Shown piece by piece: positions 15,634-56,205 of a stretch of 64,000 nucleotides of DNA. The stretch covers positions 558,001 through 622,000 of the forward strand of contig NZ_LMPS01000005.1 in the NCBI RefSeq assembly GCF_001424405.1. The letters are read 5' to 3'. This DNA comes from Dyadobacter sp. Leaf189 (GTDB taxonomy: Bacteria > Bacteroidota > Bacteroidia > Cytophagales > Spirosomataceae). A program made the position numbers and the translations under genes. Numbering within the stretch: the stretch's first letter is position 1; each line of letters starts with the position of its first letter. Below the pieces are notes generated by a model. It saw only the letters and a list, made by a program, of their open reading frames with translations, ran no database searches and had not been told where the DNA came from.

Positions 15634-15650
15634 GGGATTTATAATTCAAA

Positions 15651-17504: not shown

Positions 17505-17533
17505 GATTTCTTGATTTAGATTTTGGATGAAGC

Positions 17534-29153: not shown

Positions 29154-29981
29154 ATGTCAAAAAAAATACTTGCCGTCCTGTCAGAATACGGATATTGGGG
29201 TATTGAGTTGGTTGGACCGCTCGAAAAGCTGGAAGAAGCAGGTTACACTGTTGAATTCATCACCCCCAATGGCAAAAAGGCAGAAGCCCTTCCGCCAAGC
29301 TATGACACTACTTATGTAGACCCTCCTCTAGGTGTTTGTGTAACGACACCAATCGCAGCTGAAAAAGTAAAAGCGTTTGAAGCAAGCAACAGACTTGAAA
29401 ACAGGCTTAACCTGTCGGAAGTAATTCCACAACGTCCGTATTTCTCAACTCCCGACTTTCTGAGAGCATTCGAGAAGTACTATGCTGACCTGAAAACCGC
29501 CCAGGAAAATGTAACCGAAGAGTATGCTGCATTGCTGCTCGTAGGCGGCAGCGGGCCGATCATCGATATGGTCAACAACCAGCGCGTACACGACCTGACC
29601 CTTGCTTTTTACAACAAGAAAATGCCTGTGGCAGGAATTTGCTACGGCGTGGCACCACTTGTTTTCGCAAGGGATTTCAACGAAAGAAAATCGATCATCA
29701 ACGGCAAGCACGTAACTGGTCACTGCATTGAATACGATTACCACGACGGTACCGGCTTCCTGCACACAGACCTGAACATGGGGCCCCCACCATATGTCCT
29801 TGAATACATCCTGACAGATGCAGTAGGGCCGAACGGACAGTACCACGGCAATTTCGGTAAGGAAACTTCTGTTATCGTCGACTATCCATTTATTACCGCG
29901 CGCTCGCTGCAATGCTCATTTGAGTTCGGAGAACAGTTTGTAAACGTATTGGATAAAGGGCTCACCCGTTATGGCTGGTAA
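29154..29981 (+). CDS. DJ-1/PfpI-like protein
   Basis: A 275-residue class I glutamine amidotransferase-like protein. The nucleophile elbow is VAGICYGVAPLVFA (Cys about 164), with an acidic residue near the start (SEYGYWGIELVGPLEKLEEAG) as in DJ-1/PfpI and Hsp31-type proteins. Members act on glyoxal-type aldehydes, hydrate isonitriles or serve as chaperones. It is the first gene of the large locus and overlaps the following ThDP-enzyme gene by 11 bases, so the two proteins probably work in one pathway. Confidence 0.85.
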   Translation: MSKKILAVLSEYGYWGIELVGPLEKLEEAGYTVEFITPNGKKAEALPPSYDTTYVDPPLGVCVTTPIAAEKVKAFEASNRLENRLNLSEVIPQRPYFSTPDFLRAFEKYYADLKTAQENVTEEYAALLLVGGSGPIIDMVNNQRVHDLTLAFYNKKMPVAGICYGVAPLVFARDFNERKSIINGKHVTGHCIEYDYHDGTGFLHTDLNMGPPPYVLEYILTDAVGPNGQYHGNFGKETSVIVDYPFITARSLQCSFEFGEQFVNVLDKGLTRYGW

Positions 29982-31677
29982 AACCGGAAATCAGAAGATT
30001 ATTGAACAGTTCCTGGCCGACGGAATGGACTTCATGTTCGGGAACCCGGGTACAGTGGAGCAGGGTTTCCTTGACGCACTGGCCGAATATCCGGACATGA
30101 AGTATATACTTACCCTGCAGGAGACCATCGCAGTAATGATGGGCGACGGATATGCAAGGGCTACACAGAAACCAACCCTGGTGCAGCTGCACAGCTCGCC
30201 CGGGATCGGAAACGCAGTAGGAGCGATTTACCAGGCAAAAAGAGGCCACGCGCCGCTTGTTGTAATCGGGTCTGACGCCGGTGTGCAGTACATGAATATG
30301 GATGCACAAATGGCCAACGATCTGGTGGCAATGATGGCACCTGTGACCAAGTATGCTACCATGGCAACTTCGTCCAAATCACTGCTGAGAACATTACGCA
30401 GGGCGATCAAGATTGCTACTACTGCACCAATGGGGCCTGTTTATGTGTGTTTGCCTATGGACGTGCTGGACGAGCTCAACGATGAGCCGGTATTTCCAAG
30501 CTGCATTCCATCAACCCGCGTTTTACCACATTCAGACCTGATCCGCGAAGCTGCCGAGATATTGCTCAATGCAGAAAAGCCCATGATCTTCGTCGGCGAC
30601 GGCGTAGCTTATTCCGACGCGATTCCTGAGCTTACCAAAGTGGCAGAGCTGCTCGGCGCAGAAGTTTACGGCGTGGAATTCGGCGACGTGGTGATGGATA
30701 ATACGCACCCGCTTTACCAGGGTACCACCGGTCACATGTTCGGATCTTACAGCCACCCGATCACAACGAAAGGTGATGTGAACCTCATCGTAGGTACTTA
30801 TATGGTACCCGAAGTTTTCCCTGAGCTCGGTGACATTTATGCACCCGAAGCGAAAGTGATCCACTTTGACCTGAATGCATACGAGATCGCCAAAAACCAC
30901 CGGGTTGACCTGGGCGTGGTAAGTGATCCCAAGCTCTCGCTGGCGGAACTCGCCGAGGTACTTGAAGCGATGATCTCGACGGACCAAATGGCCGAAGTAA
31001 TTCAGCGTATAGAGGAGATCGGTACCGCGAAGAGTGAAAAGATAGCGAAGGAGAAAGAAGCTGACCAGCAATATTCAGGATCGCCGCTGCGTATGGCGCA
31101 GTTCTCGAAAGTACTTGCAGAGAAGCTGAACCTGGACGAGACCGTTATCTTCGACGAAGCCCTCACCAGCTCGCCCGCTGTAAGCAGATACATTCCTCAA
31201 AAAGCAGCAGGACAGTATTTTACAACCCGCGGAGGATCATTGGGCGTAGGATTTCCGGGCGCTATCGGAGTGAAGCTTGCAAACCCTGAAAAAACGGTGA
31301 TCGGCTTCTCCGGCGACGGCGGCAGTATGTACACGATTCAGACATTATGGTCGGCTGTTCGTCACAATGCCGGTGCCAAATTCGTAGTCTGCAACAACGG
31401 TTCCTACAAGCTTTTACAGCTCAATATCGACCAATACTGGAAGGAGCGCGAAATTGATAAACATCCATTCCCGCTTCCATTCGACCTTTCTTATCCGGCA
31501 ATCCGTTTTGACATTCTCGCGCAGTCAATGGGCGTAGAGGCAGTTCGTGTTGAGAAAGAAGAAGATATTTTACCGGCAATCGAACGCATGCTGGCAGATG
31601 ATAAGCCATTCCTGATTGACCTCGTCCTGGAAGGTGACCACAAATCTGACTGGGTGAAAGTGAACTGTTCACAATAA
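29971..31677 (+). CDS. thiamine diphosphate-dependent enzyme (benzoylformate decarboxylase-like)
   Basis: A 568-residue ThDP enzyme with the three standard domains. The N-terminal PYR domain contains the cofactor-activating Glu in LTLQETIAVMMGDGYA. The middle domain spans about 195-340. The PP domain contains the ThDP motif starting GDGGSMYTIQTLW and ending VVCNNGSYK. It resembles benzoylformate decarboxylase and acetolactate synthase-like enzymes, which decarboxylate 2-oxo acids or make acyloins. Substrate unknown. With the GMC oxidoreductase and two DJ-1 proteins it suggests carbonyl chemistry. Confidence 0.92.
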   Translation: MAGKTGNQKIIEQFLADGMDFMFGNPGTVEQGFLDALAEYPDMKYILTLQETIAVMMGDGYARATQKPTLVQLHSSPGIGNAVGAIYQAKRGHAPLVVIGSDAGVQYMNMDAQMANDLVAMMAPVTKYATMATSSKSLLRTLRRAIKIATTAPMGPVYVCLPMDVLDELNDEPVFPSCIPSTRVLPHSDLIREAAEILLNAEKPMIFVGDGVAYSDAIPELTKVAELLGAEVYGVEFGDVVMDNTHPLYQGTTGHMFGSYSHPITTKGDVNLIVGTYMVPEVFPELGDIYAPEAKVIHFDLNAYEIAKNHRVDLGVVSDPKLSLAELAEVLEAMISTDQMAEVIQRIEEIGTAKSEKIAKEKEADQQYSGSPLRMAQFSKVLAEKLNLDETVIFDEALTSSPAVSRYIPQKAAGQYFTTRGGSLGVGFPGAIGVKLANPEKTVIGFSGDGGSMYTIQTLWSAVRHNAGAKFVVCNNGSYKLLQLNIDQYWKEREIDKHPFPLPFDLSYPAIRFDILAQSMGVEAVRVEKEEDILPAIERMLADDKPFLIDLVLEGDHKSDWVKVNCSQ

Positions 31678-31704
31678 GCGATTACCTAAACCTCCACTTG
31701 TAAA

Positions 31705-33228
31705 ATGTTGAATAATCAAGTTTACGATTACATCATTGTGGGAGCCGGCGCGTCCGGAAGTGTGTTGGCCAACAGGTTAAGTGCCGATCTGGCTAACAGG
31801 GTTTTGTTGATAGAGGCAGGCGGCAGTGATCAAAATCCCGCAATCAAAGAGCCGGCAGGCTTTGTTAGTCTCTGGGGTTCCGAAATGGACTGGAAACTGG
31901 AAACTACGCCGCAGCCTGGTCTGGGTGGTCGCAGTATTACCATCAATCAGGGTAAGGTGCTGGGCGGCAGTACATCGATCAATGCGATGATGTATGTGCG
32001 CGGTAATCCTGCCAACTTCGATCTCTGGGAGCAACTTGGCGCAGAAGGCTGGTCTTACAAGGATGTTTTACCGTTTTTCAAAAAATCGGAAAACTTCGAA
32101 AACGGCGCTTCTGAATACCATTCCACCGGCGGAGAGCTCAGCATCCGTGACTGTCCCGACGAAGTAATGCGCTCCACGCATTTCCTGGAAGGCGCAACGG
32201 AACTCGGCTACGACGGACCCTACTTGGATTACAATGGAGAGCGCCAGGAAAACGGTGCCGGCCTTTTGCAGTTCCATATCGACAAGAACAACCGCCGGGA
32301 CAATGGCGCATCTGCTTTTCTGGATCCCATTCAATCAAGACCTAACCTGACTATCCTTACCAATGCGCTGGTCAGCAAAATTTTGATTGAACAAAAAAAA
32401 GCATTTGGGGTTGAGTTTGAAGCCGGAGCGCTTACCTGGAATGCACTTGCCGAAAAAGAAATCATTATCAGCAGCGGCGCACTAGCATCGCCCAAGCTGC
32501 TGCTGCTCTCGGGCATTGGTCCCGCCGCTGAACTGGAAGCGCTTCAAATCCCGGTGATCGCCGACTTACCTGGTGTAGGAAAGAATTTGCAGGACCATTT
32601 GCAGCTTCCAATGATTTTCCGGTCTAGGATACCAATGCCGAATACAACCTTACTGACGGGCAATGCCATTTTCCTGTGTACAAAAGAGGAGGGAGGGCAG
32701 GTCGATTTGCAAATCAACTTTACACCCAGCCTCCCGCAGCCACTCGCACCTTTGCTACCTGATTTCGGCGGACCAATTTGCATTTTCCTGCCAATCCTTG
32801 TACAAGCTGAGAGCAGGGGAGAAGTGACGCTGCGCTCTTCCAATATCCGGGACGCGGCAGTTGTTAATCCCAATTACCTGAGTGAGCCGGCCGACGTGCA
32901 GGTTCTTATTAAAGCAATTGAAATCGTCAGAAAAATAGCTGGTACCTCCAAGTTTGAACCGCTTAACGGAGGCGAGATGGTGCCCGGCAATGCAGATCCT
33001 GAAAGTTATATCCGCAGCCAGTGCTCCACATTGTGGCACCCGGCCGGTACCTGCAAAATCGGAAACGATGCAATGGCAGTGGTAGATCCGCAGCTGCGGG
33101 TACACGGGATACAGAACCTGCGCGTGGCAGATGCGTCGGTTATGCCCACAGTTACCAGCGGAAATACAGTAGCAGCATGCTTTATGATCGGTGAAAAAGC
33201 AGCCGAAATGATCCTCGCAGAACGCTGA
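31705..33228 (+). CDS. GMC family FAD oxidoreductase
   Basis: A 507-residue glucose-methanol-choline oxidoreductase. The FAD motif is YIIVGAGASGSVLANRL, GMC signature 1 is GGSTSINAMMYVRGNP, signature 2 is SSGALASPKLLLLSGIGP, and the catalytic pair is in LWHPAGTCKIG (His) and VTSGNTVAA (Asn). It oxidises a primary or secondary alcohol to a carbonyl; choline is not specifically supported. It has no signal peptide, so it is cytoplasmic. It lies 27 bases after the ThDP gene. Confidence 0.93.
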   Translation: MLNNQVYDYIIVGAGASGSVLANRLSADLANRVLLIEAGGSDQNPAIKEPAGFVSLWGSEMDWKLETTPQPGLGGRSITINQGKVLGGSTSINAMMYVRGNPANFDLWEQLGAEGWSYKDVLPFFKKSENFENGASEYHSTGGELSIRDCPDEVMRSTHFLEGATELGYDGPYLDYNGERQENGAGLLQFHIDKNNRRDNGASAFLDPIQSRPNLTILTNALVSKILIEQKKAFGVEFEAGALTWNALAEKEIIISSGALASPKLLLLSGIGPAAELEALQIPVIADLPGVGKNLQDHLQLPMIFRSRIPMPNTTLLTGNAIFLCTKEEGGQVDLQINFTPSLPQPLAPLLPDFGGPICIFLPILVQAESRGEVTLRSSNIRDAAVVNPNYLSEPADVQVLIKAIEIVRKIAGTSKFEPLNGGEMVPGNADPESYIRSQCSTLWHPAGTCKIGNDAMAVVDPQLRVHGIQNLRVADASVMPTVTSGNTVAACFMIGEKAAEMILAER

Positions 33229-33287
33229 ACTACTCGAAAGGCAGCGCATTGATTTACAAAAAGACCCATAACCTCAATTCAAATACA

Positions 33288-33713
33288 ATGTTGACACAAG
33301 AAGCGATTAAAGAACTGGCTATCGACTGGTACAAGAAACTGGACGTCCATGTTCCTATGGTGGAAGTATTGCCCCTGCTTGCAGATGCAGAGCTGGAAAT
33401 GGTTTTTCCCGAAGCGACCGTGTACGGATATGCCGGCTTTGAAGGTTGGTTCCAGCGCGTAATCCGCATTTTCTTCGATGAAGTACATACTGTGAAAAGT
33501 GTCGAGTCGGAGATTTCGGGTGATAAGGCTACCGTGAAAGTAGTAGTGCAGTGGGAGGCAAGTGTATGGAATGCACCTGAGCCTTTCAGCAAACGCATTA
33601 AGTGCGATGCTTTCCAGACCTGGGAAGTGAAACTGAATGATGCAGGCAAAGTCATCATCAGCAAATACATCGTAGACGGACTCGAATACCACGAAGGTTC
33701 GGCTACACTTTAA
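33288..33713 (+). CDS. NTF2-like (SnoaL) protein 1 of 3
   Basis: A 141-residue protein from the ATG at 33288 (MLTQEAIKELAIDWYKKLDV). An earlier in-frame start at 33249 is less likely. It has the cone-fold pattern with VHVPMVEVLPLLADAELEMV, FDEVHTVKSVESEISGDKAT and paired strands near the end. Possible roles are hydratase, isomerase or ligand carrier. It is the first of three consecutive NTF2-like genes and lies 59 bases after the GMC gene. Confidence 0.8.
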   Translation: MLTQEAIKELAIDWYKKLDVHVPMVEVLPLLADAELEMVFPEATVYGYAGFEGWFQRVIRIFFDEVHTVKSVESEISGDKATVKVVVQWEASVWNAPEPFSKRIKCDAFQTWEVKLNDAGKVIISKYIVDGLEYHEGSATL

Positions 33714-33746
33714 AACGATCATTTATACCCTTATCCTTTTCACCTC

Positions 33747-34139
33747 ATGAAGAACGTACCTGATACCAAGCTGGGTAAAATGTACAGAGCGCACATCCAG
33801 CACATTCTGGACAAGAATATCGATGCGCTTTTGGATCAATATACAGACGACGCGACGCTGATCAGCAGCTTCTCCAAATCACCGGTTATTTACAAAGGCC
33901 GCGATCAGGTGAACGAGCATATGCAGGGCATTCTGGGGATTGACGGTCTGGAAACTGAAATTGTTTTCTGGGCTGAGACCGAGAATCCTGAAACGCTGAT
34001 GATCACCGAGCAGATCACCATGACAGTGGGCGGCGAAAAGAGCGAAATGCGTTTCGCAGATAGCTGGGTACTTGAAAATGGCAAGATAGCGATCCACTTC
34101 GCAGGAATGGTACAGCATCCGGACGGAACACTGGCCTGA
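33747..34139 (+). CDS. NTF2-like (SnoaL) protein 2 of 3
   Basis: A 130-residue protein with an N-terminal helix (GKMYRAHIQHILDKNIDALL), DDATLISSF, YKGRDQVNEHMQGIL and a C-terminal strand GKIAIHFAGMVQHPDG. It differs clearly from its neighbours, so this is not a recent duplication. The SnoaL fold is inferred from the pattern; the substrate is unknown. Confidence 0.78.
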   Translation: MKNVPDTKLGKMYRAHIQHILDKNIDALLDQYTDDATLISSFSKSPVIYKGRDQVNEHMQGILGIDGLETEIVFWAETENPETLMITEQITMTVGGEKSEMRFADSWVLENGKIAIHFAGMVQHPDGTLA

Positions 34140-34185
34140 AAAACCGATTGATTCAGAACATTATTCTCAACTATATCCTAAAACT

Positions 34186-34518
34186 ATGAAAGCGTTTTAT
34201 GACGAACAGGTAGCATTGCTGGCAGATCGCAATGCAGAAGTACTGGTTGACAAGCACTATGCAGCAGATGCAGAAATGGTGGTGCTCAGCGGACCAGAGC
34301 CCATTGTTGCCAAAGGAGCGGAAGCGATCAAGAACCTCTTCTCAGGTTATCTTGAATATGTGTACCGCGGCTTTATTTCAACCGAAAAATTTGCGACGAC
34401 CGACGACAGTATCATGTTTGAAGCAACCATTGACACAGTCAACGGGCCAACCAGGATCTATGACGCGATGTTGCTGAAAGACGGAAAGATCATCAGACAT
34501 TATTCGGGTCTTAAATAG
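34186..34518 (+). CDS. NTF2-like (SnoaL) protein 3 of 3
   Basis: A 110-residue protein similar in layout to the preceding one: FYDEQVALLADRNAEVLVDK, YAADAEMVVLSG, AKGAEAIKNLFSGYL and KDGKIIRHYSGL. It is the shortest of the three. With the other two it could form a hetero-oligomer, since NTF2-like proteins commonly dimerise; this is inference. Confidence 0.78.
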   Translation: MKAFYDEQVALLADRNAEVLVDKHYAADAEMVVLSGPEPIVAKGAEAIKNLFSGYLEYVYRGFISTEKFATTDDSIMFEATIDTVNGPTRIYDAMLLKDGKIIRHYSGLK

Positions 34519-34580
34519 CCTGGCGGATCTGGATTTTTCCAAATCTAAATTTTACGTAACTCCTCTAAACGTGTTTCTCT

Positions 34581-35150
34581 ATGAAACTTGCCGGAAAAAA
34601 GATCGGTATTCTGTTCGAAGCCGACTTCTTTGAGAACGAAATCTTCTACTACAAGTTCAGGTTCCCCGAGGAAGGTGCAGAAGTGCATTTCCTTTCCAGG
34701 CTCTGGGGCCAGGACAAACTGACATTCCTGGGCCACGAGTACCGTGCTCCGGTGGATTGCTGGGAGACTTTCGAGAACATGAGCGATGAAGAGCTCAGGA
34801 CTTATGATGCCATTATCGTTCCCTCGGGAATGGTTTCCGACAGACTGCGTTACACGGAGGATGTGGAGAAAATCCCGCCTGCTACTGAATTTCTGAAACG
34901 CGTATTCGCTGAGCCGGGTATCCTGAAAGGCATTATTTGCCACGGTCTCTGGCTGGTAGCTCCTGCTACCGAGCTCGTGAGAGGCAGAAAGCTGGTTTGC
35001 CACAACAACCTGATCGGCGACGCCAAAGCCTACGGCGCCATTTACACGAATGAAGACGTAGTCGTGGATGGTGACCTGATTACGGGACGGTCGGGCGGAC
35101 ATGCCCATTTATTTGCCAAAAAGATCATCGAAACCCTTTCTGCAAACTGA
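34581..35150 (+). CDS. DJ-1/PfpI family protein
   Basis: A 189-residue PfpI/DJ-1 domain protein. It begins KLAGKKIGILFEADFFENE, with the nucleophile Cys in GIICHGLWLVAPA (about residue 118). The segment PSGMVSDRLRYTED is where the oxyanion loop is expected. Unlike the first DJ-1 gene of the locus it is a minimal single-domain form. It lies 62 bases behind the NTF2-like genes and only 7 bases before the VOC gene. Confidence 0.88.
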   Translation: MKLAGKKIGILFEADFFENEIFYYKFRFPEEGAEVHFLSRLWGQDKLTFLGHEYRAPVDCWETFENMSDEELRTYDAIIVPSGMVSDRLRYTEDVEKIPPATEFLKRVFAEPGILKGIICHGLWLVAPATELVRGRKLVCHNNLIGDAKAYGAIYTNEDVVVDGDLITGRSGGHAHLFAKKIIETLSAN

Positions 35151-35157
35151 TATCAGT

Positions 35158-35583
35158 ATGGACACAACTTTTTTCCATTTGGCATTGACCGTCAAAAACC
35201 TGGCAAAGTTTGAAGCGTTCTACGCAAAGCATTTCGGTTTCAAACGTGCCAGAACGATCAGTCTGGGCGATGATGCTGAACTTGTTTTCCTGAAGAACGA
35301 CAAGAACGTGTACCTCGAAATATTCCCGCCGGAAGAAGAGCGGCCGGTCGCTATGTCAGAAGCAGACGGTCCGCACTATCCGGGCCTGCGCCACATTGCA
35401 TTCTCTGTGGAGGACATCGACGAAAAACTCAGGTTAATGGGTGATGATGCAGTAATCACACTCGGCCCGCTTCATTTTGACGAGGTAATCGAAGGCTGGA
35501 AGACAGTCTGGCTGAAAGATCCGGAAGGAAACATTATTGAGATTACCCAAGGGTACCGCGATCAAGAAGGCGTGGGCGCCTGA
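35158..35583 (+). CDS. VOC (glyoxalase/dioxygenase fold) protein
   Basis: A 141-residue protein from the ATG at 35158. It has two beta-alpha-beta-beta-beta units: MDTTFFHLALTVKNLAKFEA with YAKHFGFKRAR, then GLRHIAFSVEDIDEKL and VWLKDPEGNIIEITQGY. Likely metal ligands are His7, the His of GLRHIAF and the Glu of IIEIT. Members include glyoxalase I, epimerases and ring-cleaving dioxygenases. In this locus a lyase or epimerase role is plausible. Confidence 0.87.
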   Translation: MDTTFFHLALTVKNLAKFEAFYAKHFGFKRARTISLGDDAELVFLKNDKNVYLEIFPPEEERPVAMSEADGPHYPGLRHIAFSVEDIDEKLRLMGDDAVITLGPLHFDEVIEGWKTVWLKDPEGNIIEITQGYRDQEGVGA

Positions 35584-35656
35584 CCCTTCGACCGCCCGGC
35601 GGCCCGGTGCGCTCAGGGTGACAAAACGCCTTGTCACCCTGAGCGGAGTCGAAGGG
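35584..35656. repeat. palindromic intergenic repeat, type A
   Basis: An inverted pair: CCCTTCGACC...GCTCAGGGTGACAA and TTGTCACCCTGAGCGGAGTCGAAGGG, here listed by their conserved ends CCCTTCGAC and GTCACCCTGAGCG. The left arm carries an extra GC-rich insert (CGCCCGGCGGCCCGGT). Related copies occur at 40122-40317. It sits between the VOC and AGE genes and can fold into a long hairpin. Confidence 0.85.
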
Positions 35657-35710
35657 ACGAGCGACCCGCATTTTACAAAGTTATCATAAGAACACCTTAA
35701 CTATTTGAGC

Positions 35711-37534: not shown

Positions 37535-37540
37535 ATGGGT

Positions 37541-37632
37541 ATCGGCTTTCGGCTATCGGCTTTCAGACATCGGCTTTTTTGAGAATAAAAGACTTTGATT
37601 ACTGATTAACGACTGCCGAAAGCCGACAGCCA
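37541..37632. repeat. intergenic repeat, type B (TCGGCTTTCGGCTATCGGC family)
   Basis: Direct units ATCGGCTTTCGGC, TATCGGCTTTCAG and CATCGGCTTTTTT at 37541-37580 face an inverted copy, GCCGAAAGCCGACAGCC, at 37615-37631. The arms can fold into a hairpin around about 35 AT-rich bases. It lies between the AGE gene and the first STAS gene. Confidence 0.75.
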
Positions 37633-37651
37633 AAACTAACCGCTGCAAACT

Positions 37652-37990: not shown

Positions 37991-37993
37991 GCT

Positions 37994-40114: not shown

Positions 40115-40121
40115 TAACATT

Positions 40122-40317: not shown

Positions 40318-40373
40318 TCCGGAACATTACACGACATTCACATAGTTTAACAAAATTTTAAAACATCAAAAAA

Positions 40374-40694: not shown

Positions 40695-40705
40695 CAACCG
40701 AAAAA

Positions 40706-41134: not shown

Positions 41135-41136
41135 GT

Positions 41137-44304: not shown

Positions 44305-44311
44305 GCACGCG

Positions 44312-46936: not shown

Positions 46937-46946
46937 TACTCAACAA

Positions 46947-47528: not shown

Positions 47529-47529
47529 T

Positions 47530-50373
47530 TTGAAAAGACTGGCGGACATATCGCTGATGCTCAACGTCAGAAAAGGGGAGGGCAACCTGGTCACCTTACT
47601 GATGGCTTACTCTTTCTTCATGGGAGGGGCTACTGCCTTGTTTTACACGGTAGTAGCCTCCTCATTCCTGATCAGCTTCGACCGGCTCATGCTGCCGCAG
47701 GTGTACATTGTCGGCGGCGTCTTTACTTACCTGCTCGGTCTGGGTGTGACGCGGCTACAAAAGTTAATGGCATTTGACAAGCTGGCCGAGAGAATGCTGT
47801 TTTTCCTGATCAGTTCGATTGTCGTTTTTCTGGTTACATACCATTTAACCGGCAGCAGGTGGGTTTTCTTTGTACTCTTCATCTGGAACCGCGTTTTTGT
47901 ACTTGTGAATGGGGTTACTTTCTGGGCGGTTGTTGTGAAGCTGTTTAATTTGCAACAGTCCAAAAGACTTTCGTCGCTGATTAACACAGGCGATGTATTT
48001 TCCTCAGTGATCATGTACCTGGCGGTGCCTGGCCTGGTTAAGATCATTCCTACGGACTCACTGCTCGTCGTAGCCGTCGCATTCCTGATCGTTTGCAGTT
48101 TTTTACTCAGGAAAATCCATCAGAAATACGTAACCAATGCAAGCACAAAACCTGCCGAGACAAGTACCGTCGAAAAGGCGGGCGAGGCGGCGGTAGACCC
48201 GTCTTATTACCGCAATATCTTCCTGCTTGCATTGCTGCCAGTCTTTGCGCTGTTCTATGTGGAGTACATCTTTTTCACAGAATCCCGGGCAATTTTCACG
48301 GATAAAGGTTCACTTGCCAGCTTTCTCGGGGTGTTTTTCGGTATATCTTCTATTCTCGAATTTTTTATAAAAACCTTCCTTTATAACCGCCTGATCAGCA
48401 AGTTCGGTTTGAAGCTGGGTATTTTGATATTGCCCGCGAGCCTGGTTTTCAGCTTTGCCGTTTCCGTGATCTACGGTCTCGGCTACGATACTGCCGGGAT
48501 ATTTTTCGCCTGTGTGGCTTTGTCAAGATTTTTCATGAGCGCCATTCGGAAAGCGATCAGCGAGCCGGCTTACCAGTCATTGTACCAGCCCATTCCTGCC
48601 AAATTCAGGCTCAATATCCAGGGCAGGATCGAAGGAAGGGCCAAGGCAATCGGCGGACTGGCGGCGGGGATATTGCTGCTGATACTGGTCAATTTCGCCA
48701 ATCTGAGTGCGTTGCAGCTTTCCATAATATTCCTGATCGTCGCAATCGGTTGGGCAGTGGCTTCATTCACGGGCCAGAATGCTTACAAGAAAGCAGTGCG
48801 TGACAAAGCTTTCGTATTCCCGACGCGTTCAAAGCGCACAGCCGAATACAAACCTGAGCTACAGGAAGTGGAAAAGCCATTTGATCTGCTGATCAGGCAA
48901 GTTTTTTCCAGAGATGAAAAGGAGCGGATTGAAGCGGCTGTCGGGTTCGGCGGGTCTAATCGTTTTTTGTCTTATAAATACCTGATCCCACTGTTGGAGG
49001 ACCCAAGTCCTGCTGTTCGCAAGGCGGCTATTTACACGGCGGGCGAGTTACGCAGGCCTGAGTTGTGGCCCTATCTGATGGAGCAAATGGAGATAGACAG
49101 GTACTATTCCGTTGCATTCACGGCACTGGCCAAATCGGGCACGCCGCTTTTGAAATACATTGAAAAGACTTTTCTGAGCAATAACGACAACCGGTACCGG
49201 CAGCTTCACCTGATCAAGCTGGTGGAAGAATTTGGCAATGCCGAGGCTTTGCGGTTTTTGAGGAGAAATCTTGAAAGTCCTAACCGGTTTGTGAAAGATA
49301 AGGTACTCGACTCGCTCCGCAACCTGCATTATGTATGTAATACCACCGAGCGGACATACCTGCTGAACGAGCTCGATGAGCATTTGAAAACATTCACCTG
49401 GCTGCTCGCCGCGCAAACTGATCTTGACCAGGATTATGACGCGTCTTCGCAAATGATGCACAACCTGGAACGTGAGAAGCAGCGCATTATTTTCAAGGCA
49501 TTTACGGTGCTGGAAGTGGTATTTGGTTCAAGATTTCACGCCATTACTTTGCTGAGAGGCGAGCAGGCTACCGACGCCCGAGACTATCTCACGGAGATTT
49601 CCGATTTAATGCTGCCGGAGAATGTAAAGAACAAGGTGCTGCCTTATCTGGACAGCGACTCTCGCGAAGAGATGTTCCGCAGGTATAACGAGATTTTCCC
49701 GCAGGCGCAGCTCACCGTCGAAGAGCGTTTGAAGGACGTGATCAACAAGGATTATACACGCATTTCAAGGTGGACAAAGGCGGTTGCGATTAAAGAACTG
49801 AAACATTTTCCTGCCGGAAATGTGACGGATATACTGGTCTCCAATGCGGTTTCACATTCCAAGGTAATCTCTGAAACTGCTTTCTACGTGCTCAGGATCG
49901 TTAATCCGCCCCGGTTTCGCTCGGTGATGCATGTGATGACACGGGACAATGACCAGTTTCATTTACAGATTATGAAGCCGCTTGAATGGCTGGCTACGGA
50001 AGAAGATCTGCTGATCTGCAAGCTGCGCCGCTTGCGGGATACGCCGGGCCTGGAAAAGCTTCTCAATGGAGAATTGCAGAAGATACTGCTCAATTCGGAG
50101 TATTTTAAAGAAGATGAAGGGGAGGTGATCGATTTACGGAAACATACCAGTCGGCCGGACTTGTCGGTGCTGGTTACTTACGGAAAGCTGCTCTTCTCGA
50201 AAGCCGGGGTGATCGGTGCAGGTGAGATCAGGAGCGTGGACGAGCTGAAAGCACTGGGCGTGGCAATGATCCCTAATGTGTTGGAGGAGACGGAGTTTTA
50301 CATTGTGGAAGATTATCTGTTAAAAGATTTGAACATTAGACATCACGTGGCACCGGAAACAGTAACAGCATAA
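47530..50373 (+). CDS. ATP/ADP carrier- or MFS-like transporter fused to HEAT repeats
   Basis: A 947-residue protein; TTG at 47530 is the first usable start (an ATG nine codons in is the alternative). Residues about 15-430 contain 11-12 membrane helices resembling the plastid/bacterial nucleotide translocase (TLC) or MFS fold. From about 450 to 650 lie HEAT-like helical repeats (AVGFGGSNRFLSYKYLIPLL, AVRKAAIYTAGELRRPELWP), with a further helical region to the end. In related proteins a regulatory domain follows; here none is clear. It may move nucleotides or act as a membrane signalling scaffold. Confidence 0.8.
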   Translation: MKRLADISLMLNVRKGEGNLVTLLMAYSFFMGGATALFYTVVASSFLISFDRLMLPQVYIVGGVFTYLLGLGVTRLQKLMAFDKLAERMLFFLISSIVVFLVTYHLTGSRWVFFVLFIWNRVFVLVNGVTFWAVVVKLFNLQQSKRLSSLINTGDVFSSVIMYLAVPGLVKIIPTDSLLVVAVAFLIVCSFLLRKIHQKYVTNASTKPAETSTVEKAGEAAVDPSYYRNIFLLALLPVFALFYVEYIFFTESRAIFTDKGSLASFLGVFFGISSILEFFIKTFLYNRLISKFGLKLGILILPASLVFSFAVSVIYGLGYDTAGIFFACVALSRFFMSAIRKAISEPAYQSLYQPIPAKFRLNIQGRIEGRAKAIGGLAAGILLLILVNFANLSALQLSIIFLIVAIGWAVASFTGQNAYKKAVRDKAFVFPTRSKRTAEYKPELQEVEKPFDLLIRQVFSRDEKERIEAAVGFGGSNRFLSYKYLIPLLEDPSPAVRKAAIYTAGELRRPELWPYLMEQMEIDRYYSVAFTALAKSGTPLLKYIEKTFLSNNDNRYRQLHLIKLVEEFGNAEALRFLRRNLESPNRFVKDKVLDSLRNLHYVCNTTERTYLLNELDEHLKTFTWLLAAQTDLDQDYDASSQMMHNLEREKQRIIFKAFTVLEVVFGSRFHAITLLRGEQATDARDYLTEISDLMLPENVKNKVLPYLDSDSREEMFRRYNEIFPQAQLTVEERLKDVINKDYTRISRWTKAVAIKELKHFPAGNVTDILVSNAVSHSKVISETAFYVLRIVNPPRFRSVMHVMTRDNDQFHLQIMKPLEWLATEEDLLICKLRRLRDTPGLEKLLNGELQKILLNSEYFKEDEGEVIDLRKHTSRPDLSVLVTYGKLLFSKAGVIGAGEIRSVDELKALGVAMIPNVLEETEFYIVEDYLLKDLNIRHHVAPETVTA

Positions 50374-50403
50374 CGGAGGCAACGGATTAGCATTAATAAG
50401 TAC

Positions 50404-53400
50404 ATGGACCGAAGGTTTGATCAGATGAAGAATTTATGGCTTGGATTTTGGCTGGTTTGCCTGAGTGCTGTGTCAGTGCTGGCGCAGGGCGGAAGCGCGG
50501 CTATGCGGGAGACAGGCCGGCCGATGTTCGGCTTTTACCAATCTTCCGAATACCACGCACACGACCAGAACTTCGGCATTACGCAGGATAGTACCGGGAT
50601 GATGTATTTTGCCAATTTCGCCGGCGTGCTGGAATTTGACGGCGTTTCCTGGAACACCATTCAAACTGAAAATGTGACGCGGGTATCTGCCCTGAAAACC
50701 GACAGAAGGGGCCGCGTGCTCGTGGGTGCCAATGGAGAATTCGGGTACCTCGCTTATGACAGTCTGGGTGTGCACCGCTTTGTGAGCCTTTCTGCGAAAC
50801 TGAAAGATAAGCCCGGCCAGATCATACAGATACTGCCTGCAAAAGCCGGCGCCTGGTTCATTTCCGATCAGACCAACTTTTTTTGGGACGGCAGGAATGT
50901 GAAAGCTTATAAACACGGGCTGTCCATTCAATCCGCATTTGCGTTTGGAGAGGGTGCCGTGATTTACGCCAAAAACAAGGGTTTTCTGTTATTGAATGAA
51001 GGTAAAGTTTCAGGGGTGACGATCGCGCCCGACGTACCTGCATTGCTGGATCTGGTTGCGGTTGTCCCGCTTACCGCAAATTCGGCGATGCTGCTCACCA
51101 CCAGTCAGGGCGCCTATCTTCTGGAAGGTAACCGCATTGAAAACATCGCCGGAAACGCCAACCCGGTTTTGATCAGCAACAAAGCCACCACCGCGGTGAA
51201 GATGGAAGACGGCAAGATCGCGATCAGTATGGCGGCAAACGGAATGCTGATCGTTAACCCGGACGGGACAATCGCATATCCGGTTTATGCTTACGGAGAT
51301 ATCGAAGACAGTCAGGTTACTGCTATGTTCAGCGACCGCGAGCACAATCTCTGGCTTGCATTGAACAACGGAATTGCACGTTTCGATCTGCCTTCTCCCA
51401 TATCTGTTTTCGACGGTAACTCAGGATTAAAAGGCTCCGTGACTGCGGTAACGCGCTTTGATAACAAGCTGATCGTAGGAACATTGAATGGGCTCCACAC
51501 CATTGAAAATAACAGGGTTACACATTTTACTCCATTTCCGGGAAGCTGCCTGGGGTTCAGTGAGGCGGGCGGGTATTTGTACATTGCCTCAAATAAAGGG
51601 TTGTTTCAGCTGAGTAAAACCGGCGCGCTGACGACGTTATCCAATGATTTTTCGCTGACTATAACTGCTTCCCAGGATGGTACCAGACTTTTTGTAGGCT
51701 TGCAGGATGGACTGGCTGTTTACAAAAAGTCGGGCAGCGGCTGGCAAAAGGAAAGGATCAAGTCGGTTGCTGAACAGATTACCGGCATTACTGAATTTCC
51801 GGCCGGTACATTCTGGCTAGAAACGCTTTCGAACGGGATCTTCAAATTTGACTACGCGACGGGCTCGGCACGTAAGTTCTCCGCCACGCAGGGTATCAGC
51901 AGCCCGCTTTACAATAAGCTGGCCGTTTTTGGAGACCGGCTGATTGTTACCAACAAGGATGGGCTTTTTGAATACCAGTCCAATGCAGACCGCTTTGTGC
52001 GCGCCGGCTGGCTCTCCGAAAAAGCCTGGTTTGATCGGGTGCAGGGCGACGGTGCAGGCAATATCTGGACCACGCGCGGAGACAAGAAGTCAGTAACTTT
52101 TTTCAGGAAAAAGGGACAAAGCAATGCATTTGAGCTGATCGAAAAACCTTTTCTGCCCATTGCCGCTATCCCGTTCCAGGTGATTTATCCCGATAACAAT
52201 GGGGTAGCCTGGCTGGGTGGTGACCAGGGATTGTACCGGCTCGATATGCGCCTGAGTGAACAGCATCTTCTCAACTATCCCGTGCTGATCAGAAATGTAA
52301 GTACGCCAGACGGCGACCTGCCCATTGCCCGCGACGCGGATCGGGACAGGCTAAGCCTCGACCACAAGCAGAACAGCCTCATTTTTGAATTTGCATTGCC
52401 CAGCTTCCAGAGTAACCAGGAAGTATCTTACCAGTACCTGCTCGAAAACTATGACAAAGGCTGGTCAGAATGGAGCACCATTGCGCGGAAGGAATACAGC
52501 GGGCTGCCTTCGGGAAGCTACGTTTTCAAGGTACGGGCGCGGGATATTTATGGTAACATCTCCAAAGAGGCTGCATTTCCCTTATTTATACAAACACCCT
52601 GGTTCAGGCAATGGTACATGATCGCGCTTTACGCCATCGTATTTGCGGTCATGATTTACTATGTCGTGCGCTGGCGCCTGCGGGCCATAATCCGTGAAAA
52701 GCAGGAACTGGAAAACCTGATCCGCGAACGCACGGAGGAAGTGGTGAGCCAGAAAGAAGAACTCGAACACCAGTCCGAGGAACTGTCTGCGACGAATGAT
52801 CAGCTGGAAAGGATTGATGAATTTGTGAAGTCGATCAATGGAGAAGTAAATACCGGAAAGTTATTCCAGCTGGTACTCGACAGACTTTGTGAGTTCCAGA
52901 ATGTGGACGGCGCTTCTGCATTGATATACAATAAAGCCACTGACTGTTACCAGTTTATCGCATTGGCCGGCGTGATTGAGCGTGCCGATGTGGAAGATGT
53001 ACAGCTTTCCGCAGCCGAGGCAGAACAACGCTACGTAGCCGGTGCAGACGAGGTTTACGAGGATATATTTTTGAAAAACAATTTCAGGCACCAGAATACA
53101 AACCGGTCGGTGAGTGAGGTATTCTCACCCAAATCACTGATCAGTATCCTGATCCGGGTGGATGGGGATGTTAAAAGTTACATTACCCTCGAAAATATGG
53201 ATCGCGAAAACGCATTCGGCGAGCGCGACTTTAATATGGTCAAGAACCTGAAAGAGCATTTGATCGGGGCTTATATCAAAACCAACATTCTTGAAGATCT
53301 CGAAAACACACTTTCAAACCTGAAATCCACACAGGAAGAGTTGATCCGGCAGGAGCGCCTGGCTTCTGTGGGTAGTCTTACAAAGGGTATTGTGGACCGA

Positions 53401-54123
53401 ATTCTCAATCCATTGAATTACATCAACAACTTCTCGCAGTCGTCGGGCAAGCTGTTGAAAGAAATTACGGAAGTGACTGATAAACATCAGGATACTTTAT
53501 CGGAAGATGAAAAAGATGACCTGGAAAGCGGCTTTGAAATGCTGCAAAAAAACCTGGAAAAGATATACGAGCACGGAAACAGTACCACGCGCATTGTGAA
53601 GGATATGCAGAAGCTGCTCAAAGGGAAATCAACGGAGTTCTTTGAAACAGATCTTAATCCTTTTCTGGAATCGAAGTCGAAATCAGCGATCCAGGAAGTG
53701 CTGGCGGAATATAAGGACGCGAAGATCAAGCTGGTTTTTGCATTGGATGCGGAGCCGGTGCGCGTCAGTCTGCTGCCTTACGAATTTGCACAGGTACTCA
53801 CCAACCTGATCAGCAATGCGTGTTATGCGGTCATTGAAAAGACAAAGTTCGACAAGGTATTTGAACCCGAAATCCGCATTTCGACAAGGCGCGCAGACGG
53901 AGCTATTTCGATTTTCGTGAGGGATAATGGAAAGGGTATCCCTTTGAAAGAAACAGAACAGCTTTTTAATCCATTCTTCACCACCAAACCTACTTCAAAA
54001 GGCACCGGGCTCGGACTTTACATGAGCAAGGATATCATAGAATTTCACAAGGGCAGAATGTCGGTAACTTCAAAGGAAGGGGATTTTACTGAGATTGAAA
54101 TTTCTCTTCCCATTGTCAAATAA
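50404..54123 (+). CDS. periplasmic-propeller hybrid sensor with degenerate histidine kinase domain
   Basis: A 1239-residue protein; the signal peptide starts at the internal Met8 (MKNLWLGFWLVCLSAVSVLA). Residues about 30-640 are propeller repeats of the Reg_prop type. A Y_Y_Y domain follows (about 655-740, YQYLLENYDKGWSEW). Then come a membrane helix near 745-765, a coiled coil, a GAF domain (about 805-960) and a kinase core. The H-box reads GSLTKGIVDRILNPLNYINN: the expected His is Asp998. The ATPase domain seems intact (LTNLISNACYAV, DNGKGI, GTGLGLYM). It may bind ATP without autophosphorylating and signal through the next kinase. Confidence 0.9.
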   Translation: MDRRFDQMKNLWLGFWLVCLSAVSVLAQGGSAAMRETGRPMFGFYQSSEYHAHDQNFGITQDSTGMMYFANFAGVLEFDGVSWNTIQTENVTRVSALKTDRRGRVLVGANGEFGYLAYDSLGVHRFVSLSAKLKDKPGQIIQILPAKAGAWFISDQTNFFWDGRNVKAYKHGLSIQSAFAFGEGAVIYAKNKGFLLLNEGKVSGVTIAPDVPALLDLVAVVPLTANSAMLLTTSQGAYLLEGNRIENIAGNANPVLISNKATTAVKMEDGKIAISMAANGMLIVNPDGTIAYPVYAYGDIEDSQVTAMFSDREHNLWLALNNGIARFDLPSPISVFDGNSGLKGSVTAVTRFDNKLIVGTLNGLHTIENNRVTHFTPFPGSCLGFSEAGGYLYIASNKGLFQLSKTGALTTLSNDFSLTITASQDGTRLFVGLQDGLAVYKKSGSGWQKERIKSVAEQITGITEFPAGTFWLETLSNGIFKFDYATGSARKFSATQGISSPLYNKLAVFGDRLIVTNKDGLFEYQSNADRFVRAGWLSEKAWFDRVQGDGAGNIWTTRGDKKSVTFFRKKGQSNAFELIEKPFLPIAAIPFQVIYPDNNGVAWLGGDQGLYRLDMRLSEQHLLNYPVLIRNVSTPDGDLPIARDADRDRLSLDHKQNSLIFEFALPSFQSNQEVSYQYLLENYDKGWSEWSTIARKEYSGLPSGSYVFKVRARDIYGNISKEAAFPLFIQTPWFRQWYMIALYAIVFAVMIYYVVRWRLRAIIREKQELENLIRERTEEVVSQKEELEHQSEELSATNDQLERIDEFVKSINGEVNTGKLFQLVLDRLCEFQNVDGASALIYNKATDCYQFIALAGVIERADVEDVQLSAAEAEQRYVAGADEVYEDIFLKNNFRHQNTNRSVSEVFSPKSLISILIRVDGDVKSYITLENMDRENAFGERDFNMVKNLKEHLIGAYIKTNILEDLENTLSNLKSTQEELIRQERLASVGSLTKGIVDRILNPLNYINNFSQSSGKLLKEITEVTDKHQDTLSEDEKDDLESGFEMLQKNLEKIYEHGNSTTRIVKDMQKLLKGKSTEFFETDLNPFLESKSKSAIQEVLAEYKDAKIKLVFALDAEPVRVSLLPYEFAQVLTNLISNACYAVIEKTKFDKVFEPEIRISTRRADGAISIFVRDNGKGIPLKETEQLFNPFFTTKPTSKGTGLGLYMSKDIIEFHKGRMSVTSKEGDFTEIEISLPIVK

Positions 54124-54161
54124 CCCGCAGACAGTTACCCGTACTACTAATAGACACGAAT

Positions 54162-54992
54162 ATGGAGCCCGCAATTACTGATAAGGACATCGCGATTTAT
54201 CAGCAGAAAATAATCGAACTCAACCGGCTAGCCGAGATCGGACAGCTGAGTGCAGGTATTTTACATGAGATCAAGAATCCCGTAAGCTTCGTAAACAATT
54301 TCTCGCGCCTGTCCAACGGGCTGATCGACGAAATGCGTGAGCTGGTAGGCAAGCCGCTGAACGAGCTGAGTGAGGACGATGTGGCGGACGAGCGGGAGTT
54401 GTTGGAAACTTTATCTAAAAACCTGGTGAAGATCAACGAGAACGGGAAGCGAATTGAGCGGATTATCCAGGGTATGCTCGCACAGGCGCGTTCCGAGGGT
54501 GCTGTTTTCGAAAAGACCGACCTGAACCAGCTGCTCGAAGAGTATAGCAAGCTGGCTTATCAGAGCGTGCGTGCAGAGGACAGGGAATTTAATGTGACAC
54601 TGAACTATGTGCTTGATCCTGCGGTAGGGAATGTCAGCATCTCGCGTGGGGAGTTCGGGCGCGTGATCGTGAACCTGGTCAATAATGCCTGCTACGCCAT
54701 TAATGAAAAGCGTAAACAACAGGTGGCGGGGTTTGATCCTGTGATTTCCATTTCCACGCGGCGGATTGACAATGAAGTAGAGATACTGCTGTGCGACAAC
54801 GGGATAGGTATTCCCGAGGAAATTGTAGCCAAACTCTTTCAGCCTTTTTTTACTACAAAGCCGCAGGGAAAAGGGACGGGACTGGGATTATCGCTTACTT
54901 ACACCAGCATTGTGGATACGCATAAAGGGACGATCAGTGTGACTTCGGTTCCGGGAGAAAAAACAGAATTCAAAATACTCATTCCTGCCTAA
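54162..54992 (+). CDS. soluble histidine kinase
   Basis: A 276-residue kinase without membrane or sensor domain. The H-box is intact: AEIGQLSAGILHEIKNPVSF (His about 41). The N-box is VNLVNNACYAINEK, the G1 box DNGIGIPEEI and the G2 box GKGTGLGLSLTYT. It closely resembles the last part of the upstream propeller sensor but keeps the His that the sensor has lost. A natural idea is that the two form a heterodimer in which this subunit is phosphorylated. Confidence 0.92.
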   Translation: MEPAITDKDIAIYQQKIIELNRLAEIGQLSAGILHEIKNPVSFVNNFSRLSNGLIDEMRELVGKPLNELSEDDVADERELLETLSKNLVKINENGKRIERIIQGMLAQARSEGAVFEKTDLNQLLEEYSKLAYQSVRAEDREFNVTLNYVLDPAVGNVSISRGEFGRVIVNLVNNACYAINEKRKQQVAGFDPVISISTRRIDNEVEILLCDNGIGIPEEIVAKLFQPFFTTKPQGKGTGLGLSLTYTSIVDTHKGTISVTSVPGEKTEFKILIPA

Positions 54993-55023
54993 ACGGGATT
55001 TTTACCAAAACAAACATTAAAAA

Positions 55024-56205
55024 ATGGCCATCAGGATATTAAGTGTGGACGACGAGCAAGACATGGAAATGCTCATTCTTCAACTGTTCAGAAAGCAGAT
55101 CAGAGACAAGAAATATGAATTCGTATTTGCAAACAACGGGATTGAGGCACTTCAAAAACTTGAAGAAACAGAGGATATTACCCTGATCCTGTCCGATATC
55201 AACATGCCGGGAATGGACGGGCTGACCTTTCTTTCCAAAATCAATGAAAAGCAGAACCCGCTTTTAAAGGCGATTATGGTGTCGGCTTACGGGGATATGG
55301 ACAACATCCGCACGGCGATGAACCGCGGCGCATTTGATTTCGTAACCAAGCCGGTGAATTTTGAGGATCTTGAAATTACCATTTCAAAAACTGTAGAGCA
55401 CATTGAAATGCTGGCCAATTTCGAGAAAGGCCGCGAACAGCTGATTGCGATCCAGAATGACCTGAGTGTGGCGCGTGAGATACAGCTGTCGATGCTTCCC
55501 AAAACGGTACCTGCCAACATCGGCAAGGCGGGCGTGGACCTGCATGCATTTATCCACCCGGCGAAAGCGGTGGGCGGCGATTTGTATGATTATTTCATGA
55601 TGGACTCCGAGCACCTGTTCTTTATGATCGGTGACGTTTCGGATAAGGGAGTGCCGGCTGCGTTGTTTATGGCGATCTGTAAAGCGATCTTCAAAAGCCA
55701 GTTTTCAAACAGGAACGACGACAGTATTTGTGAAAAGGTGAAGATCGTAAACCAGTTTCTAAGTGAAGATAACTCGACTTATATGTTCGTTACTGCATTT
55801 GTGTGCATTATGAATGTAAAAACGGGAGTTGTTGAATATGTGGACGCCGGCCACGAGCCTCCGATCATCATCCGGGCAGACGGTACTACCGAGCTCGTTC
55901 CCAAACTGGGTGGAATGGCGCTCTGCTTTGATCCGTCGTTTGAGTACGAATCGCATTCATTCACACTGAACAAGGGAGATAAGTTTGTACTTTATACAGA
56001 TGGAGTAACCGACGCCAACAACCTCGCAGGCGCGCGTTACGGTATGCATTACCTGCAGGATTTCTTTACGACGGGCGAAGGTTCGACCAAAACTTCGGCG
56101 CGGGAGATGAACGAGGCTACATTGGAAAGCCTGGTCGAATTTATCGGCGCGGCCAATCAGTTCGATGATATCACCATGCTGTCGCTCAGGTACCTGACCA
56201 ACTGA
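55024..56205 (+). CDS. response regulator with PP2C-type (SpoIIE/RsbU) phosphatase output
   Basis: A 393-residue protein. The receiver (about 1-125) has the acidic pair in ILSVDDEQDME, the phospho-Asp in TLILSDINMPGMDG (about 58) and the Lys in FDFVTKPVN. A short coiled coil (about 130-155) leads to a SpoIIE-type PP2C domain with VGGDLYDYF, IGDVSDKGVPAALFM, YVDAGHEPP, YTDGVTDANN and FDDITML, which keeps the metal-binding Asp residues. It would dephosphorylate STAS proteins when its receiver is phosphorylated, linking the two kinases to the STAS/RsbW-like set 15 kb upstream. Confidence 0.94.
   Translation: MAIRILSVDDEQDMEMLILQLFRKQIRDKKYEFVFANNGIEALQKLEETEDITLILSDINMPGMDGLTFLSKINEKQNPLLKAIMVSAYGDMDNIRTAMNRGAFDFVTKPVNFEDLEITISKTVEHIEMLANFEKGREQLIAIQNDLSVAREIQLSMLPKTVPANIGKAGVDLHAFIHPAKAVGGDLYDYFMMDSEHLFFMIGDVSDKGVPAALFMAICKAIFKSQFSNRNDDSICEKVKIVNQFLSEDNSTYMFVTAFVCIMNVKTGVVEYVDAGHEPPIIIRADGTTELVPKLGGMALCFDPSFEYESHSFTLNKGDKFVLYTDGVTDANNLAGARYGMHYLQDFFTTGEGSTKTSAREMNEATLESLVEFIGAANQFDDITMLSLRYLTN

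Follow-up and report, generated by a model that had tools for sequence, protein, structure and literature searches.

A putative icfG-type partner switch in a carbon and carbonyl gene cluster of Dyadobacter, with a phosphatase input probably rewired in Bacteroidota

The icfG gene cluster is known from Synechocystis, in which the operon slr1852-1862 includes Slr1855 (AGE), Slr1856 (STAS), GlgX1 and IcfG (PMC8670252). In a 2025 New Phytologist article, the putative antagonists are slr1856 and slr1859, the isoamylase is slr1857, the phosphatase is slr1860 (icfG), and slr1861 is both a kinase and an anti-SigC factor; low-carbon and glucose phenotypes are given there for mutants (PMC12329169). A related locus has been analyzed here in Dyadobacter sp. 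Leaf189. It lies in the window (the whole stretch of 64,000 nucleotides analyzed, positions 558001-622000 of contig C5 in a 6.07 Mb genome), where 20 co-directional plus-strand genes fill positions 29154-56205. A preliminary description of this DNA was right about the coordinates and the strand but counted 18 uninterrupted genes, although its own list names 20, and its author knew of no described system with such a composition, a view that does not hold for the core, which corresponds to the icfG cluster of the two sources cited above.

The core, formed by the AGE, STAS, GlgX, STAS and RsbW-like kinase genes plus a PP2C phosphatase gene, is almost certainly of the icfG type because the content of the Synechocystis operon and the layout of two Nostoc loci (L071 and L076: DJ-1, AGE, STAS, GlgX, STAS, PP2C, RsbW, matching the icfG operon) agree. 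On balance, the locus is best read as an icfG-type partner switch set within a carbon/carbonyl gene cluster, the input to its phosphatase having probably been rewired in Bacteroidota. In searches of open-licence PMC papers for icfG and its gene names the cluster was met as a Synechocystis system, and a Bacteroidota version was not found in searches of such papers. As far as these literature searches show, three points are new: the occurrence of the core in several phyla, the input arm of the Bacteroidota loci, and a propeller kinase that lacks the phosphoacceptor histidine next to a histidine-bearing partner. The genes are the following (positions in the window, strand, product and supporting evidence):

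29154-29981, plus: DJ1a, DJ-1/PfpI (ThiJ-like) protein; Pfam PF17124 (63.6 bits), PF01965
29971-31677, plus: thiamine diphosphate (ThDP) enzyme; Pfam PF02775/PF00205/PF02776
31705-33228, plus: GMC oxidoreductase; PF00732, PF05199, under the NCBIfam cut-offs
33249-33713, plus: NTF2a, labelled NTF2-like in the preliminary description; zero Pfam matches, accompanies the cluster in several phyla
33747-34139, plus: NTF2b, SnoaL-like; PF12680
34186-34518, plus: NTF2c, weakly SnoaL-like; PF12680 below the cut-off (E=0.0022)
34581-35150, plus: DJ1b, DJ-1/PfpI protein; PF01965 (64.6 bits)
35101-35583, plus: VOC/glyoxalase-like protein; PF00903 (43.9 bits)
35705-37534, plus: sugar epimerase of the AGE superfamily, with additional regions at both termini; PF07221 over residues 162-494
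37652-37990, plus: STAS1, RsbV-like substrate with Ser53-Ser54; PF01740, TIGR00377 above the cut-off
37994-40114, plus: GlgX, glycogen debranching enzyme; TIGR02100 equivalog (680.7 bits, cut-off 640.9)
40374-40694, plus: STAS2, RsbV-like substrate with Ser57; PF01740
40706-41134, plus: RsbW-like serine kinase; PF13581 (56.5 bits), under the NCBIfam RsbW cut-offs
41137-44304, plus: nSTAND1 ATPase, hydrophobic segment/coiled coil and WD40 repeats; PF20703 (287.2 bits), PF00400
44312-46936, plus: TonB-dependent receptor; PF00593, PF07715
46947-47528, plus: GNAT acyltransferase; PF00583 (33.8 bits)
47530-50373, plus: fusion of an NTT/TLC-like membrane domain with HEAT repeats (NTT-HEAT); PF13646, AlphaFold model and Foldseek
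50404-54123, plus: first kinase-like protein (HK1) with propeller, Y_Y_Y domain, transmembrane segment and kinase-like ATPase; PF07495, PF02518, PF07494 below threshold
54162-54992, plus: second kinase (HK2), a soluble histidine kinase with GILHEIKNP; PF00512, PF02518
55024-56205, plus: REC-PP2C phosphatase of the SpoIIE type; PF00072, PF07228 (145.6 bits)
56218-58032, minus: glycogen synthase (GT3), a convergent neighbor outside the conserved unit; PF05693

Most domain identities of the preliminary description were backed by Pfam and NCBIfam; the limits concern NTF2a, NTF2c, the transporter, and HK1, which has neither a HisKA match nor the histidine. Gaps of 1-11 bp or overlaps, said there to be many, occur at 6 and 2 of the 19 junctions, respectively. 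The 50-bp overlap of DJ1b with the VOC gene may stem from a misplaced start codon; the VOC protein may in fact begin 57 bp further in, at an in-frame Met of the translation.

Conservation of the core and of its enzymes

The core was surveyed by an AGE search of genome contigs, from which the best 80 loci of at least 580 coding stretches were picked by AGE similarity. AGE proteins of these 80 loci are 66-98% identical to that of the window (98% in Dyadobacter crusticola, L022) and GlgX is 67-99% identical across phyla; for the 18 cyanobacterial loci of the set, the values are 66-70% for AGE and 69-72% for GlgX. The relative order AGE-STAS-GlgX-STAS-RsbW, intervening genes allowed, was found in 57 of the 66 loci for which 6 kb or more of downstream sequence was available: 37/37 in Bacteroidota, 12/17 in Cyanobacteriota, 4/5 in Thermodesulfobacteriota, 2/3 in Chloroflexota, 2/2 in Pseudomonadota, and 0/1 in both Nitrospirota and Planctomycetota. 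In the loci that depart from this order, RsbW was not seen past STAS2 (L068), STAS1 is doubled (L072), STAS2 and RsbW were not seen (L077, L095, L096) or lie on the opposite strand (L090, L099), or a STAS gene is absent or under the score cut (L084, L085). STAS1 is the first window-type gene past AGE in 65 of these 66 loci and is then followed by GlgX in 64. The gene-neighborhood check proposed in the preliminary description thus revealed that relatives possessing the genes keep their order in a single locus, and because of this conservation the locus is more than a chance assembly. The core is also present in several non-photosynthetic groups, and its basic role is therefore not necessarily in photosynthesis.

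Upstream of AGE, a DJ1b match is present in 64 of the 69 loci that extend 6 kb or more on that side, the cyanobacterial ones being as low as 32% identical, and ThDP and DJ1a matches in 47 and 44 of them, counts that take in distant kin near 23-33% identity. Neither ThDP nor DJ1a was found upstream in the cyanobacterial loci (16/16). The close form of both genes (at least 51% identity) occurs in Bacteroidota, Nitrospirota, Thermodesulfobacteriota, Chloroflexota, Planctomycetota and Pseudomonadota, sometimes past the 3' side of the core or encoded on the opposite strand. In relatives, a xanthine dehydrogenase-like molybdenum hydroxylase or an LtrA protein can also be encoded in the upstream part (L044:3042-5921, L048:8763-9980). 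Spread is patchy: of 194 genomes belonging to the order, 16 have an AGE match at E<=1e-10, and in 11 of those the identity is at least 39%. In the AGE tree the window-type loci are divided between a Cytophagales set of 28 rows and another set of 6 rows (SH-aLRT 83), a topology that would fit a single gain followed by losses, a double gain or transfer alike.

Residues needed for partner switching were inspected in alignments with a 60-bit cut that include the window, weaker rows being outside the row numbers. The SSAG motif of STAS1 is invariant in 80/80 rows, Ser57 of STAS2 in 69/69, E43, N47, D79, G107, G108 and G110 of RsbW (N box and G boxes) in 68/68, and Asp58 of the REC domain together with Asp186, 204, 381 and 382 of PP2C in 24/24. 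Ser54 of STAS1 and Ser57 of STAS2 are assumed to correspond to the phosphoserine of SpoIIAA/RsbV, and the roles given to the five aspartates of REC-PP2C likewise follow from known motifs. With kinase, substrate and phosphatase residues intact, the assignment of the PP2C, STAS and RsbW-like proteins to the partner-switch type made in the preliminary description is upheld.

Among the enzymes, the ThDP protein has benzoylformate decarboxylases as closest solved kin (PDB 6a50, E=4.9e-55), and the columns of a Glu and a His, which we take to be the cofactor Glu and the active-site His, are invariant in 37/38 rows, with 1 gap. The predicted AGE fold (mean pLDDT 80.7, pTM 0.88) has as nearest PDB folds the glucose-2-epimerase of Runella slithyformis (8h1l) and cellobiose 2-epimerases, at 13-21% identity; the model suggests an AGE-superfamily protein nearest to glucose-2-epimerase, with no particular sugar implied. 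His379 and His519 of AGE, presumably catalytic by analogy with AGE motifs, are invariant in 35/35 rows, and the acidic motif columns of GlgX in 74/74.

The Bacteroidota input arm and its two kinases

The REC-PP2C gene ends the gene run, six genes away from RsbW. The nSTAND gene follows RsbW in 30 of the 37 Bacteroidota loci with enough sequence, and 22 of these 30 were extended downstream along with one locus lacking nSTAND (23 regions, from 29 genomes). In all 22 extended loci (L102-L123) the relative order nSTAND, TonB receptor, NTT-HEAT, HK1, HK2 and REC-PP2C is kept; HK2 of L116, which an excessively long REC-PP2C frame masks in the layout, was taken from the HK2 alignment, and L120 and L121 have an extra open reading frame ahead of REC-PP2C. 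The additional locus, L124, in which no nSTAND follows RsbW, does not show this arm order. The slot between the TonB receptor and NTT-HEAT genes is occupied by a GNAT or another open reading frame, on the opposite strand in L111 and L115. Three occupants not scored as GNAT had no Pfam match; by eye some occupants have GNAT-like and some methyltransferase-like motifs (L106, L122, L123). A single family for this slot was rejected, as a mixed alignment of 9 occupants not scored as GNAT was not similar to the GNAT set (probability 0.09%).

Outside this arm the PP2C carries other inputs, which in six scanned proteins were GAF (L071), dCache-HAMP (L092, L053), REC-GAF (L078), HAMP (L066, where PP2C is upstream of AGE) and a HAMP match below the cut-off (L048). 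The core is for this reason a unit with exchangeable sensors.

The preliminary description counted two sensor kinases and overlooked the absent phosphoacceptor histidine of the propeller kinase HK1. The segment GIVDRILNPL of HK1 aligns with GILHEIKNPV of HK2, placing Asp where the histidine should be, and HK1 has no HisKA (PF00512) match at E<=0.01. In alignments with a 100-bit score cut, weaker rows being outside the counts, this Asp is present in 23/23 rows (the window and 22 loci), GIVDRILNP is letter-identical in 22/23, and the N-box Asn, DNG and GTGLGL are kept in 23/23, while the histidine of HK2 is present in 24/24, one of these rows (L124, 700 amino acids) not being an orthologue. A wider count was restricted to HK1 proteins of more than 1000 amino acids, leaving out fragments (the short L118 copy, L124, L185 and L187): Asp is found in 25 of 28, with HK2 adjacent in 24 of those 25 (L189 among them), and His in 3. 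L118 has, between HK1 and HK2, an extra short HK1-type kinase of 307 amino acids with GIVDRIFNPL (L118:6543-7466).

The three histidine-bearing copies, with GIAHEI, come from L170 and L181, of one genus, and from L183, of another family; REC-PP2C directly follows HK1 without HK2 before it, a Pfam HisKA match is found in HK1 of L170, and no AGE was present in the stretches fetched for these three loci. In L172 the genes run STAS, nSTAND, TonB, an open reading frame, NTT-HEAT, propeller-Y_Y_Y-PP2C and RsbW, with the propeller fused directly to PP2C. By its predicted domains, one receptor type is thus tied to the phosphatase in three ways: through its own His, as a His-less protein with HK2, and by fusion to PP2C. 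The L172 run (1933-16347) lies directly past a T6SS_VasE gene (PF05936; L172:532-1875, plus strand), with no AGE nearby, and the partner switch may have cargoes other than sugar metabolism. Another layout is found in L174-L176, which come from a family within the same order: the genes for NTT-HEAT and nSTAND are near each other, and in L174 a 479-amino-acid protein (DUF4062 and TIR matches, both below the cut-off) stands between them, followed by a small outer-membrane barrel protein (16997-18067) that starts, by eye, like the N-terminal region of the TonB receptor (window 44312-44700, plus strand, about 100 amino acids). This receptor has 129 N-terminal amino acids without a Pfam match.

The P-loop Lys of nSTAND is present in 26 of 30 rows, the remaining four being gaps; a PDB search with this protein was uninformative for the ATPase, the best 60 of 420 matches all being of the WD40 type. 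The preliminary description called the following membrane protein a TLC/MFS-HEAT transporter. Pfam supports the HEAT part and gives no TLC/NTT match. In the AlphaFold model (mean pLDDT 82.3, pTM 0.64), the best Foldseek matches of the membrane half are the ATP/ADP translocases 9j3j, 9j3m, 9j3l and 9j3n (target-normalised TM up to 0.69, 13-16% identity), closely followed by other MFS folds. The gene product is accordingly modelled with an NTT fold. A cyclic nucleotide-binding domain matched below threshold in two NTT-HEAT relatives and not at all in the window protein.

Proposed signaling route and alternative explanations

In the proposed route, for which we infer function throughout the locus, the periplasmic propeller of HK1 would sense the outside state. 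HK1, which would be unable to phosphorylate itself because its phosphoacceptor His is replaced by Asp, would act on HK2, either trans-phosphorylating its His or controlling it in a mixed complex, and HK2 would then phosphorylate Asp58 of REC-PP2C. The PP2C could then remove phosphate from Ser54 of STAS1 and/or Ser57 of STAS2, residues whose conservation is observed, so that the bare STAS would capture the RsbW-like kinase and the client of the latter would be freed. The output may tune glycogen and sugar handling (GlgX, AGE) together with the carbonyl-handling pathway. The wiring from HK1 through HK2 to REC-PP2C is considered likely, and the glycogen/sugar output somewhat favored. In favor of the route stand the conserved core order and arm order, the intact switch residues, the presence of HK2 beside nearly all HK1-Asp copies and its absence beside the three HK1-His copies, the propeller-PP2C fusion of L172 between STAS and RsbW genes, the other sensor domains joined to the same phosphatase type elsewhere, and the fact that HK2 is the closest kin (45%) of HK1 within its own genome. 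A broader and rather doubtful extension would be that one membrane receptor has three interchangeable outputs (its own kinase, a fused PP2C, or a His-less kinase acting via a separate kinase), that what the partner switch controls is not an alternative sigma factor but an assembly at the membrane in which the nSTAND ATPase, the outer-membrane receptor and the NTT-HEAT protein come together, and that icfG-type metabolism is plug-in cargo.

Several observations weigh against the proposed route. In 7 of the 37 Bacteroidota loci PP2C follows RsbW without nSTAND. L190 (14263-19523) has HK1-Asp with no adjacent HK2 or REC-PP2C, neither of which was seen within the next 15 kb; its next gene encodes another His-bearing kinase, whose N-terminal region resembles by eye a cyclic-nucleotide-binding domain. 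The three HK1-His copies amount to two of one genus and one other. A kinase-end tree (quick method, midpoint root) places HK1-Asp on one side with the short L118 copy and HK1-His with HK2 and other kinases, HK1-Asp and HK2 sharing the same deep splits; this history fits one ancient loss of His followed by joint inheritance, and the 25 HK1-Asp copies would for that reason not be independent events. Identity matrices of five arm genes in 23 window-type loci correlate in all pairs (rho 0.54-0.90, 253 pairs each), and since the value for HK1-HK2 (0.80) is no better than those for HK1-nSTAND (0.90) or HK1-PP2C (0.86), they would support joint inheritance and not specific contact or binding. Finally, among 395 genomes drawn from the phylum, AGE (E<=1e-60) was found in 13 and NTT-HEAT (E<=1e-20, distant paralogues included) in 20. 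Because both co-occur in just 2, arm and core are separate modules joined in some Bacteroidota. The conservation of the order as one locus, in the relatives that have it, agrees with the preliminary description; against a single indivisible system stands the separate occurrence of the AGE core and of the arm from nSTAND to PP2C.

The client of the RsbW-like kinase bears on the first alternative. The genome encodes one stand-alone RsbW-sized protein among 14 PF13581 matches (open frame of 151 amino acids, the next smallest being 294) and two SpoIIE-type PP2C phosphatases, REC-PP2C included. Just one Sigma70_r3 protein was found, and for this reason no SigB/SigF-type client is apparent: an alternative sigma factor of the SigB, SigF or SigC type was not found in a region-3 search of the genome, in which ECF factors were not examined. 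A PDB search with RsbW alone returned nothing at E<=0.01. As client, the nSTAND protein or another non-sigma protein is our tentative first choice, the primary sigma factor is a possible second, and something else is rather unlikely; the single region-3 sigma factor makes the binding partner of RsbW directly testable. Sigma-66 is the primary sigma factor of Chlamydia. A plain icfG/SigB-type switch, in which RsbW would be an anti-sigma factor for the primary sigma factor and the genes from nSTAND to HK2 would be merely co-located, draws on that single Sigma70_r3 protein, on the chlamydial RsbW modelled to hold sigma-66 (PMC11619594) and on the anti-SigC role of Slr1861 (PMC12329169). Nevertheless, it appears unlikely, as mere co-location fits poorly with an arm that stands between RsbW and phosphatase in 22/22 extended loci and with L172, where the arm is flanked by STAS and RsbW and the fetched stretch contains neither AGE nor GlgX.

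Still less probable are two units sharing a place and not a pathway, one metabolic/icfG (29154-41134) and one for membrane signaling (41137-56205). Each is found without the other, and gaps of 117-259 bp around AGE (121 bp on the upstream side and 117 bp on the downstream side), STAS1 and STAS2 (the widest, 259 bp, between GlgX and STAS2) could hold promoters. On the other hand, within the window a PP2C belonging to the icfG unit itself is missing, the only one of the locus ending the arm; the genome search found just one other SpoIIE-type PP2C, and a gap of 2 bp separates RsbW from nSTAND. That HK1 is a decaying pseudokinase with a functionless Asp, its essential residue lost and phosphotransfer left to HK2 alone, is very improbable given the letter identity of GIVDRILNP noted above, which exceeds that of the same stretch of HK2, and the retention of the N-box Asn, DNG and GTGLGL in every row.

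Other features of the surroundings were also considered. The GT3 glycogen synthase gene, which adjoins REC-PP2C beside the GlgX-bearing cluster in L102-L109, was rejected as a member of the unit because this adjacency is seen in only 8 of the 22 extended loci. A promoter pattern that we take to be of the Bacteroidota type matched once in the window, against 1.65 expected, and not at all in the locus; sigma-70-type sites were fewer in the scan than in shuffles, and terminators were about as many as in shuffles. An anti-phage defense system was discarded, as PADLOC gave no meaningful match on 7 of the 20 proteins: a 20-residue mad3 stretch (E=0.00015) was matched on nSTAND, and the other six proteins scanned had no match. 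Elsewhere in the genome (L169:8052-14760, C5 about 744050-750760) a second set comprises an HK2-like kinase and two receiver proteins that share 45% and 57% identity with the REC portion of REC-PP2C, with a distant NTT-HEAT on the other strand, and cross-talk with the main locus is possible.

Comparison with known systems

The locus shares with the icfG cluster of PCC 6803 (slr1852-slr1862) AGE (Slr1855), STAS (Slr1856), GlgX (Slr1857), a second STAS (Slr1859), PP2C (IcfG/Slr1860) and the RsbW-like kinase (Slr1861), the Synechocystis cluster being tied to carbon and glucose metabolism. It differs in that the Dyadobacter phosphatase is a REC-PP2C located past six extra genes, with two kinase genes before it, in the upstream addition of ThDP, GMC and NTF2 genes, and in that no SigC-type sigma factor was found in the genome by the region-3 search. 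The RsbU/RsbV/RsbW and SpoIIE/SpoIIAA/SpoIIAB systems resemble it in having a Ser kinase, a STAS substrate and a SpoIIE-type phosphatase, with residues intact, whereas the Dyadobacter cluster has no sigma factor and has two STAS proteins.

The NTT-HEAT protein belongs with the NTT-HEAT and NTT-HEAT-cNBD fusions, a known family described as functionally uncharacterised (PMC5381601), with which it shares an NTT-like membrane domain followed by HEAT repeats; in contrast, the window protein sits in a partner-switch run and lacks the cNMP-binding match. HK1 resembles the Reg_prop/Y_Y_Y two-component propeller kinases in its propeller, Y_Y_Y domain and kinase ATPase, but it has no HisKA match and the adjoining response regulator is a PP2C phosphatase. 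DivL of Caulobacter, reportedly a histidine kinase with Tyr instead of the phosphoacceptor His, is similar in kinase architecture and in the replacement of this His, whereas HK1 has Asp, a periplasmic propeller sensor and a His-bearing soluble kinase encoded next door. The three natural wirings, together with the loss of His beside a partner kinase, offer a clean test of signaling by a His-less kinase.

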